A DNA stretch of 64,000 nucleotides. Source: Pseudonocardia acidicola. GTDB lineage: Bacteria; Actinomycetota; Actinomycetes; Mycobacteriales; Pseudonocardiaceae. The stretch is taken from NCBI RefSeq assembly GCF_012911935.1, contig NZ_JAAXLA010000024.1, positions 1-64,000 on the forward strand, given 5' to 3'. The notes beneath the pieces are model-generated. The model was not told where the DNA came from, made no database searches, and saw only the letters and a list, made by a program, of their open reading frames with translations. A program made the translations under genes and the position numbers. Every line of letters begins with the position of its first letter. Position 1 is the first letter of the stretch. Shown piece after piece: positions 6,977-9,446 of the stretch.

Positions 6977-7765
6977 TCAGAACCGGCGGTTGGCCAGCAC
7001 CCCGGTCCGCGCCCGAGCCGTCTCGGCCTGGTCGAGGTCGAGGTCGGCGACCAGCAGCCCGGGCTCGGCCCCCAGCTGCGCGACGACGGCGCCGAACGGG
7101 TCGGCGACGAGGCTCGCCCCGATCCCGGTGGGTGCCTTGCCCGCCTCACCGCCCACGGTCGTCGGGTCGGCCTGGTCGCACGCCGCGACGAACGCGCCGG
7201 AGTCCAGCGCGCGGGCGCGCACCAGCACGTCCCACTGCTCACGCTTGCCGCGCCCGGCCCCCCATGACGCGGGCAGCACGATCAGCGCCGCCCCGCGCCC
7301 GGCCAGCTGCTGGAACAGCCCGGGAAACCGCACGTCGTAGCAGGTCGCGAGACCGACGGTGTGGCCGTCGACGTCGGCGGTGACCGGCTCGCGGCCCGGC
7401 GCGACGGTGTCGGACTCGGCGAACCCGAAGGCGTCGAACAGGTGGATCTTGTCGTAGGACGTGTCGACGCCGCCGCCGGTGGCCAGCAGCGTGTTGTGCA
7501 CCCGCCCGTCCGCGGACGGGGTGAACATGCCGGCGACCAGCGTGATCCCGGCGTCGGCCGCGATGGCCCGGACCCGTGTCGCCCACGGCCCGTCCAGCGG
7601 CTCGGCCACCGGCCCGAGCGGGACGCCGAACCGGCACATCGCCGCCTCCGGGAACACCACCAGGCGGGCGCCGGCGTCGGCGGCCCGCCGGGTGTAGTCG
7701 TCGATCAGCTTCAGGTTGTCCTCGGGCTCGGTCGAGGAGGCGGCCTGGGCGAGGGCGATGCGCAT
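6977..7765 (-). CDS. Carbon-nitrogen hydrolase (nitrilase superfamily)
   Basis: Omega-amidase/nitrilase-family enzyme of 262 residues. The catalytic triad is visible as Glu40 (VVFPEAAM), Lys106 (YDKIHLFD) and Cys142 (ATCYDVRFP). The pattern, including NTLLATGGG and RALDSGAFVAACDQ, resembles the Nit1/Nit2 (deaminated glutathione or alpha-ketoglutaramate amidase) branch, but the substrate is not fixed by these motifs. ATG at 7763-7765 starts directly with the fold (MRIALAQ). It is convergent with ppk2 (10 nt apart) and divergent from the aromatic leader region. Confidence 0.93.
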   Translation of the reverse strand: MRIALAQAASSTEPEDNLKLIDDYTRRAADAGARLVVFPEAAMCRFGVPLGPVAEPLDGPWATRVRAIAADAGITLVAGMFTPSADGRVHNTLLATGGGVDTSYDKIHLFDAFGFAESDTVAPGREPVTADVDGHTVGLATCYDVRFPGLFQQLAGRGAALIVLPASWGAGRGKREQWDVLVRARALDSGAFVAACDQADPTTVGGEAGKAPTGIGASLVADPFGAVVAQLGAEPGLLVADLDLDQAETARARTGVLANRRF

Positions 7766-7806
7766 GCCGGAGATGATCCCCGTACGAGGCCCGCACGGCG
7801 AACCGC

Positions 7807-7819
7807 TAGAGTCGAGCCC
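7807..7819 (+). promoter_or_regulatory. -10 element of the DAHP synthase leader transcript
   Basis: TAGAGT at 7807-7812 followed by 7 nt places a likely transcription start at the GTG at 7820. That makes the leader peptide leaderless, the usual arrangement for actinobacterial attenuator peptides. No clear -35 was recognised. Confidence 0.55.
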
Positions 7820-7885
7820 GTGCAGCGCCAGTACTGGTTTGGACGCCCGGCCCCGGATGGGCCGGCAGGCGTCTCGCTGCGCTGA
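7820..7885 (+). CDS. Aromatic leader peptide (Tyr-Trp-Phe)
   Basis: A 21-residue ORF starting at GTG 7820 and ending in TGA 7883-7885, about 80 nt before DAHP synthase. Its fifth to seventh codons are TAC TGG TTT, giving three different aromatic residues in a row (QRQYWFGR). TTT is a rare codon in this genome. It starts at the predicted transcription start and is followed by competing hairpins. This is the layout of ribosome-mediated attenuation; a leader peptide (AroR) is described upstream of the DAHP synthase gene aroF in Corynebacterium glutamicum. Starvation for any one of Tyr, Trp or Phe would stall the ribosome in the same place. The function is inferred from structure and context. Confidence 0.72.
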   Translation: MQRQYWFGRPAPDGPAGVSLR

Positions 7886-7943
7886 CCTCCCATCCCCGAG
7901 CCGGATCGACAAGCCGGCTCGACGGGACCGACGAGGCGGCTTG
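7847..7943 (+). promoter_or_regulatory. Attenuator: competing hairpins before aroF
   Basis: Pairings found: CCGGCCC 7847-7853 with GGGCCGG 7859-7865; GGATGGG 7855-7861 with CCCATCC 7889-7895; CGAGCCGG 7897-7904 with CCGGCTCG 7914-7921; and CAAGCCGGCTCG 7910-7921 with CGAGGCGGCTTG 7932-7943 (11 of 12). The first two are mutually exclusive, as are the last two. A ribosome stalled on the Tyr-Trp-Phe codons (7832-7840) would cover the left arm of the first hairpin and release the second. The last hairpin ends 4 nt before the purine-rich ribosome-binding site (about 7947-7953), so control could be transcriptional or translational. Confidence 0.65.
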
Positions 7944-7963
7944 CCGGAAAGGAAGCCCCCGTC

Positions 7964-9052
7964 ATGTCTCTCACCGCCCACCCGGCGGACGCCTGCGACC
8001 AGGTGCTCGACGACCACCGCACCAACCGGATCAGTCCGCTCCTGTCCCCCGCGTTGCTGCGCCACGAGCTGCCCGTCGACGCGGCCGTGGCGGAGACGGT
8101 CACCCGTGCCCGCGCGGAGATCGTCGACGTCCTCGACGGGCGTGACGACCGGCTGATCGTGGTCGTCGGACCGTGCTCGATCCACGATCCCGAGGCCGCC
8201 CTGGACTACGCCCACCGGCTGGCCGCGCACACCGCGGGTGTCAGCGACCGGCTCCTGGTCGTCATGCGGGCCTACTTCGAGAAGCCCCGGTCCACCCTCG
8301 GCTGGAAGGGCCTGATCAACGACCCGGGCCTGGACGGGACGTTCGACGTCAACACCGGCCTGCGGCTGGCCCGCAAGCTGCTGCTCGACGTCTCCGCGCT
8401 CGGGCTGCCCGTCGGCTGCGAGTTCCTCGACCCGATCACCCCGCAGTTCATCGCCGACACGGTCAGCTGGGGCTCGATCGGCGCCCGGACCGCGGCCAGC
8501 CAGGTGCACCGTCAGCTGTGCAGTGCGCTGTCGATGCCGGTCGGGATCAAGAACTCGACCGACGGTGACGTCCAGGTGGCGGTCGACGGCGCGCGGGCGG
8601 CCGCGGCGAGCCACGTGTTCATGGGCATCAACCGCGACGGGCTCGCGGCGCTGATCACGACGTCGGGCAACCCGGACTGCCACGTCATCCTGCGTGGCGG
8701 GTCGGCCGGGCCCAACCACGACGCCGTCACCGTCGCGCACACGATGGAGCGGCTGCGCGCGGCCGGGCTGCCCGAGCGCGTGCTCATCGATGCCAGCCAC
8801 GGCAACAGCGGCAAGGACCACGTGCAGCAGGCCGCCGTGGTCCGCGACGTCGCCGCGCGGATCGCCGCGGGCGAGCGGGGTGTGGCCGGCGTGATGCTGG
8901 AGAGCTTCCTGGCCGCCGGCCGCCAGGACCTGACGCTCGGTGCGCGCGACGAGCTCAGCTACGGCCGCAGCATCACCGACGCCTGCATGGACTGGGACAC
9001 GACCGCGGCGCTGCTCGACGAGCTCGCGGCGGCGGTGCAGACCCGGCGCTGA
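7964..9052 (+). CDS. aroF: 3-deoxy-7-phosphoheptulonate synthase, class I
   Basis: DAHP synthase (362 residues), the entry enzyme of the shikimate pathway, joining phosphoenolpyruvate and erythrose 4-phosphate. Class I (AroF/G/H) blocks are clear: VVVGPCSIHDPEAALDYA, MRAYFEKPRSTLGWKGLIND, PVGCEFLDPITPQF, GARTAASQVHRQL, VGIKNSTDG and LIDASHGNSGKD. ATG 7964 has AAAGGA 10 nt upstream. The Tyr-Trp-Phe leader peptide and alternative hairpins upstream suggest attenuation by aromatic amino acid supply. A perfect 16-bp inverted repeat follows the stop. Confidence 0.96.
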   Translation: MSLTAHPADACDQVLDDHRTNRISPLLSPALLRHELPVDAAVAETVTRARAEIVDVLDGRDDRLIVVVGPCSIHDPEAALDYAHRLAAHTAGVSDRLLVVMRAYFEKPRSTLGWKGLINDPGLDGTFDVNTGLRLARKLLLDVSALGLPVGCEFLDPITPQFIADTVSWGSIGARTAASQVHRQLCSALSMPVGIKNSTDGDVQVAVDGARAAAASHVFMGINRDGLAALITTSGNPDCHVILRGGSAGPNHDAVTVAHTMERLRAAGLPERVLIDASHGNSGKDHVQQAAVVRDVAARIAAGERGVAGVMLESFLAAGRQDLTLGARDELSYGRSITDACMDWDTTAALLDELAAAVQTRR

Positions 9053-9173: not shown

Positions 9174-9446
9174 ATGCCCGACCCGCGGCTTCGAGTCTTC
9201 GTGGAGAACGGTCCTCGCGGGGGCGAGTGGGTGACGATCGAGGCCGGATCCGACGGCGCGCCACCGCCCCGCATCGAACTGCTCGACCCGGCGGTGGCGC
9301 AGGTCGTCGACGACAACACGTCGATGCCGCTGCCACCGGCGCAGCGGAAGCTGTCGACGTACGAGCGCACCGGGGTCCGGCACGCCGACGGCAGCGCGGT
9401 CTACCGGTGGTCGGGGCCGACGGACGCGCCACCGACTCGGCGGTGA
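9174..9446 (+). CDS. Small conserved-looking hypothetical protein
   Basis: A 90-residue soluble protein starting MPDPRLRVFVENGPRGGEW. Its alternating hydrophobic pattern suggests a small beta-rich domain ending in GSAVYRWSGP. TAGGTT at 9161-9166 lies exactly 7 nt before ATG 9174, supporting a leaderless transcript and this start. I do not recognise a family. No signal peptide or membrane segment is present. Confidence 0.65.
   Translation: MPDPRLRVFVENGPRGGEWVTIEAGSDGAPPPRIELLDPAVAQVVDDNTSMPLPPAQRKLSTYERTGVRHADGSAVYRWSGPTDAPPTRR

Follow-up and report, generated by a model that had tools for sequence, protein, structure and literature searches.

Tyr, Trp and Phe codons in a short predicted leader upstream of aroF in Pseudonocardia acidicola and its relatives suggest an attenuator acting at the ribosome-binding site

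The analyzed window, a stretch of 64,000 nucleotides from Pseudonocardia acidicola, contains the gene aroF for a class I DAHP synthase (7964..9052, + strand; PF00793; TIGR00034 aroFGH). Directly upstream, on the same strand as all RNA features described below, lies a predicted leader peptide ORF of 21 codons, MQRQYWFGRPAPDGPAGVSLR (7820..7885), that extends from GTG at 7820 to TGA at 7885 and leaves a gap of 78 nt to the aroF start. Three consecutive codons of this ORF, TAC TGG TTT at 7832..7840, specify Tyr-Trp-Phe and are considered regulatory based on the sequence and on their conservation in relatives. The motif TAGAGT (7807..7812) would serve as the -10 box of a leaderless transcript starting near 7819-7820; it has the TAnnnT form, with 7 nt between it and the GTG, a spacing characteristic of a leaderless start. 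A scan of 7700-8100 with the sigma-70 consensus found no promoter-like site, and the transcription start of the leader thus stays a prediction. The initial annotation had described a 21-codon ORF, predicted to be leaderless, that contains these three codons and precedes a gene for class I DAHP synthase; the ORF and the gene are confirmed by the sequence and by the PF00793 and TIGR00034 matches. It had also called TTT a rare codon, in agreement with the Phe codons of aroF itself (TTT 0, TTC 6).

The window contains five short ORFs of the leaderless type, and only the one at 7820-7885 encodes Tyr, Trp, and Phe within four residues; triplets of these residues in any order occur six times over the six frames of the window. 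The 147-nt leader RNA is more stable than its shuffled versions (z = -3.09), with one of 200 shuffles being equally good. The DAHP synthases found in the P. acidicola genome are one class I enzyme, the product of aroF at 7964-9052, and one type II enzyme. In the three stretches upstream of trpE, pheA, and the type II DAHP synthase gene, no short ORF with adjacent aromatic codons was found. The divergent neighbor at 6977-7771 (- strand) encodes a carbon-nitrogen hydrolase (PF00795), whose top NCBIfam model, deaminated glutathione amidase, scores under its cut-off. Downstream of aroF, a 90-residue ORF (9174-9446, + strand) has no Pfam match.

Relatives of the DAHP synthase were found in 36 of 60 related genomes and in 124 of 200 genomes of the family. 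The upstream DNA was analyzed at 143 loci (30 + 6 + 27 + 80); the loci of the family-wide search that were left out have 59% identity or less, are fragments at contig ends, or were already included. A leader was recognized by the occurrence of WF, YRF, or WRF early within an ORF no longer than 36 codons. By this rule, 112 of the 143 upstream regions contain a leader, and two further leaders with a longer start (L048 and L055) were recognized by eye. The presence of the leader follows the identity of the downstream enzyme to the P. acidicola AroF protein. At 65% identity and above, 109 of 112 orthologs in the total of 143 regions have it; the corresponding numbers are 2 of 2 at 63-65%, 3 of 15 at 58-63%, and 0 of 14 below 58%. 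The 30 loci of the genus that were analyzed first all have the leader. Three orthologs from a single genus (L083, L093, and L096) have no recognizable leader ORF and retain the sequence around its stop codon together with the distal hairpins. A separate group of paralogous DAHP synthases with approximately 58-61% identity (L117, L119, and L121-L126) lacks the leader; by eye, those of its members that were inspected share a different conserved upstream stretch.

The association can also be observed from the side of the leader. A DNA pattern composed of TGGTTT, CCGGCC, CGCTGA, and GAGCCGG with gaps, to which the enzyme does not contribute, was found in 50 of the 397 genomes scanned from the order, P. 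acidicola included, and the reversed control pattern in none of the 397. In a collection of named genomes the pattern was found in at least 119 stretches, 80 of which were listed. A DAHP synthase gene lies directly downstream at 78 of the 80 listed loci, and the stretches of the other two (L245 and L246) end too early. The genera among the listed matches are Pseudonocardia, Amycolatopsis, Saccharomonospora, Prauserella, Haloechinothrix, Kutzneria, Actinophytocola, Kibdelosporangium, Nocardia, Rhodococcus, Prescottella, and Antrihabitans. A TAnnnT box is located 6-8 nt upstream of the start in all 112 leaders (7 nt in 85 of them), a count that is partly circular because starts were chosen with preference for such a box, a boxed start being available in every leader. 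Other ATG or GTG triplets of the same upstream regions are preceded by the box in 4 of 1153 cases. The box is also found before the leader start at all 80 listed named loci.

All three aromatic residues are encoded in 109 of the 112 leaders, the exceptions (L054, L058, and L060) lacking Tyr; since the search rule demanded Phe and mostly Trp, only the Tyr count is unbiased. Similarly, Tyr is present in 78 of the 80 listed leaders of the pattern set, into which Trp and Phe are built. The order of the residues differs among clades. The arrangements among the 112 leaders include YFWF (35), YWF (24), FYFWF (7), YPWF (5), WYRF (5), YRWF (4), YWWF (3), and YWRFSW (2). In the WYRF and YWRF leaders the usual position of Trp is occupied by the Arg codon CGG and Trp is placed elsewhere. 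Because Trp reappears in this way, the sequences suggest that each aromatic residue is kept for its own sake. At the final Phe position, 110 of the 112 leaders use TTT; at their other Phe positions TTC predominates (57 of 59). The preference for TTT at the last position could reflect a slowly read codon or a constraint on the RNA.

The RNA between the regulatory codons and aroF may adopt several alternative helices. Hairpin 1:2 (7847..7865) pairs CCGGCCC at 7847-7853 with GGGCCGG at 7859-7865 inside the ORF, and hairpin 3:4 (7898..7921) pairs GAGCCGG at 7898-7904 with CCGGCTC at 7914-7920; both are present in the fold of the window. Helix P (7847..7904), supported by covariation, pairs 7847-7861 with 7889-7904, running from the middle of the ORF past the stop codon, and excludes both of these hairpins. 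A C-rich spacer S (7886..7897) behind the stop codon is paired with segment 2a in this helix. Two distal hairpins follow. Hairpin Y4:X' (7911..7942; 7911-7916 with 7937-7942 and 7918-7921 with 7932-7935), also detected by covariation, is a putative antisequestor. Hairpin X:Z (7938..7957), identified by a permutation test, pairs GGCTT at 7938-7942 with AAGCC at 7953-7957, and beneath it lies the Shine-Dalgarno region GGAAAGGA (7946-7953). Strand X is common to both distal hairpins and covaries with both partners. In addition, CAGCGC at 7823-7828 can pair with GCGCTG at 7879-7884, which would bring the start and the end of the ORF together; of the base pairs in this helix, one is conserved in 50 and another in 51 of 52 leaders, and the helix is possibly a lid opened by translation.

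The initial annotation had listed four inverted repeats in mutually exclusive pairs. This was right in kind but incomplete, as the full set consists of hairpins 1:2 and 3:4, helix P excluding both, hairpins Y4:X' and X:Z sharing strand X, and the short helix of the ORF ends. Helices 2:3 and 2:4, considered as alternatives to 3:4, were rejected with mean folding probabilities of 0.00-0.02. Pairing of spacer S with the Shine-Dalgarno region was dismissed by eye because S varies there. Conservation of the Tyr-Trp-Phe codons and of the stems in relatives had been set beforehand as a test. The codons are kept, as described above, and the alignments of upstream regions demonstrate that the alternative hairpins are kept too, some of them covarying.

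The strength of this signal differs between helices. In hairpin 1:2, 94.5% of cells are paired, and its invariance is too high for covariation; the pairs of hairpin 3:4 are almost invariant as well. In Y4:X', 92.4% of cells are paired, and changes on both sides occur in 44 cells versus 17.7 in shuffles. When partners were permuted, the own partners of X:Z and of Y4:X were superior, with 0 of 5000 permutations in each case. For helix P, 78.2% of cells are paired versus 75.8% in shuffles and at most 50.1% in slid registers, with a misfit of the register that affects 28 cells at one base pair and 30 cells at a second one; its covariation is weaker than that of the distal hairpins, and an anchored test was likewise positive. 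RNAalifold reported no base pair changed on both sides. Covariation is not visible in the 34 leaders of the Nocardia/Rhodococcus group, where the segments are very alike: permutations were equally good or better in 2790 of 5000 cases for 2a:S and in 1032 of 5000 for Y4 with its downstream partner. This set was obtained from 49 leaders by omitting L224, which has no segment 4, and near-identical sequences. A search of Rfam with 7000-9000 of the window and with four relatives returned microRNA models only, all under their gathering scores.

These features suggest the following scenario. A ribosome stalled at the Tyr, Trp, or Phe codons would allow helix P to form; helix P would block hairpin 3:4, so that Y4:X' could form and leave the Shine-Dalgarno sequence free for the translation of aroF. 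A ribosome reaching the leader stop codon would instead favor the combination of 1:2, 3:4, and X:Z, in which the Shine-Dalgarno sequence would be masked.

The scenario was modeled in 55 leaders with a ribosome footprint of 9 nt past the A-site codon, a value of our choice; a block extending only to the end of TTT approximates a stall further upstream. In transcripts ending at segment 3, the probability of helix P exceeds 0.5 in all 55 leaders with the Trp codon in the A site, in all 55 with the block ending at TTT, in 43 with the Phe codon in the A site, and in one with the stop codon there. Without a ribosome the same is observed in 37 of 55 leaders, a difference from classical attenuators, which avoid such folding. 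Once the transcript includes segment 4, hairpin 3:4 competes with P and prevails in most cases at equilibrium, even with a stalled ribosome; therefore, the switch would have to be kinetic, decided during transcription. With a wider block (TTT + 12) the leader appears unswitched, 3:4 reaching 0.97. Further downstream, Y4 pairs with its distal partner in 23 of 51 leaders when segment 3 is captured versus 1 of 51 otherwise. The cost of opening the Shine-Dalgarno region of P. acidicola is 5.66 kcal/mol with X:Z versus 3.60 kcal/mol, and the means are 5.14 and 3.68 kcal/mol, respectively; the increase due to X:Z exceeds 1 kcal/mol in 26 of 52 leaders, and in 7 the cost is lower with X:Z. By a simple pairing measure of the site the states are alike (0.55 and 0.53).

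The end-product codons are thus situated in a short predicted ORF before a biosynthetic gene, as seen from sequence and conservation, and in silico the position of the ribosome selects between exclusive structures, both being characteristic of a ribosome-mediated attenuator. On balance, conservation, covariation, and modeling favor, with moderate confidence, such an attenuator, in which the stall would be relayed through exclusive helices to the Shine-Dalgarno sequence. Since no U-tract terminator was found at the locus, the output of the P. acidicola leader is probably translational, or else Rho-dependent. As far as the sequence can tell, a single peptide of 21 codons appears to combine the signals of the three aromatic end products, and the element seems to end in a ribosome-binding-site switch. 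In the most complete version of this reading, the leader would act as a genuine OR gate with Tyr, Trp, and Phe as its three inputs, connected to aroF translation by a terminator-free chain of helices and shared by Pseudonocardia and numerous further genera of Pseudonocardiaceae and the Nocardia/Rhodococcus group; we hold it tentatively, at a probability of roughly 0.4.

Another scenario retains the leader and places its output at transcription termination: Rho would load on free spacer S unless a stall makes helix P hide it, and some relatives would use an intrinsic terminator. The C-rich composition of S and its position immediately behind the stop codon agree with this explanation. So does a feature of 8 of the 112 leaders, in which segment 3 is immediately followed, ahead of segment 4, by a hairpin and a T-run, as recognized by eye (L097, L101, L102, L104-L106, L112, and L118); T-runs were seen in 11 leaders, three of them without an accompanying hairpin. 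On the other hand, a consensus scan of 7700-8100 found no terminator-like site, and the covarying strands Y, X, and Z sit at the Shine-Dalgarno sequence. Moreover, in the five relatives folded up to the T-run (L104, L112, L118, L097, and L034), the terminator hairpins form irrespective of helix P and of the ribosome. We regard termination as a rather unlikely output.

The other two alternatives concern what the leader senses. A leader peptide, AroR, was reportedly described before aroF of Corynebacterium glutamicum by Neshat et al. in 2014. In the available part of one source, Phe limitation raises the expression controlled by AroR and the availability of Tyr is irrelevant (PMC11802643), and the P. 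acidicola leader might similarly be a sensor of Phe, its Tyr and Trp codons being passengers or merely slowing the ribosome. The last position of Phe and its nearly constant TTT codon fit this possibility. Evidence against it comes from the retention of all three residues in nearly all leaders and from the relocation of Trp where CGG occupies its usual place, and modeled stalls upstream of Phe yield helix P at least equally well; hence we consider a sensor of Phe alone unlikely. Finally, the tail PAxxGxxG...R* is conserved at the peptide level too, as expected if the nascent chain were an arrest peptide that itself senses free amino acids. Yet the Pro-Ala codons of segment 1 are nearly fixed (CCG in 105 and GCC in 106 of 110 leaders), and Pro is replaced by Ser through TCG in 4 of 110, TCGGCCC being readable in the alignment for L017, L114, and L115. 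Because the codons of segment 1 are near-invariant, the RNA is at least as conserved as the peptide tail. Given also that the order of the aromatic residues varies between clades, an arrest peptide seems very improbable.

If the reading as a three-input translational attenuator is true, the leader would unite the sensing of the aromatic amino acids in one element, placed where the shikimate pathway begins. E. coli distributes the control of this entry step over isozymes and repressors, each of which responds to one amino acid. The leader allows codon-by-codon tests of multi-signal integration by an attenuator. It also provides a handle on aromatic precursor supply; it is present in Amycolatopsis orientalis (L234), the producer of vancomycin.

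Attenuation by leader peptides is known as a kind, and a three-amino-acid leader with such spread and architecture is not met in the literature searched: a full-text search, with most subscription papers outside its scope, found no description of such a DAHP synthase leader outside Corynebacterium. In its accessible text, a survey of 2005 reported that the Phe and Tyr operons of Actinobacteria are not preceded by any conserved RNA structure (PMC1262725), and the eight leaders named in the accessible part of a study of S. lividans include none for DAHP synthase (PMC8079986). As far as the same partial sources describe them, the actinobacterial trp leaders share with the P. acidicola leader a leaderless peptide, end-product codons, and alternative hairpins; they differ in having Trp codons only, intrinsic terminators, and a position before trpE (PMC1262725, PMC8079986). 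The ilvB-II motif of Corynebacterium, in the available description, is likewise structured, and its uORF has codons for multiple amino acids from a single pathway; it differs in that these are branched-chain amino acids and that the mechanism is described as transcription attenuation (PMC10272879). AroR of C. glutamicum, the known element closest to the P. acidicola leader and termed a translational regulatory leader peptide in an excerpt of one paper (PMC7356990), contains Phe-Tyr-Phe according to a portion of another (PMC4046766), in contrast to Tyr-Trp-Phe in P. acidicola. Within these partly available accounts, AroR and the P. acidicola leader have in common an aromatic-codon peptide directly before a DAHP synthase gene, and stalling in AroR raises expression.
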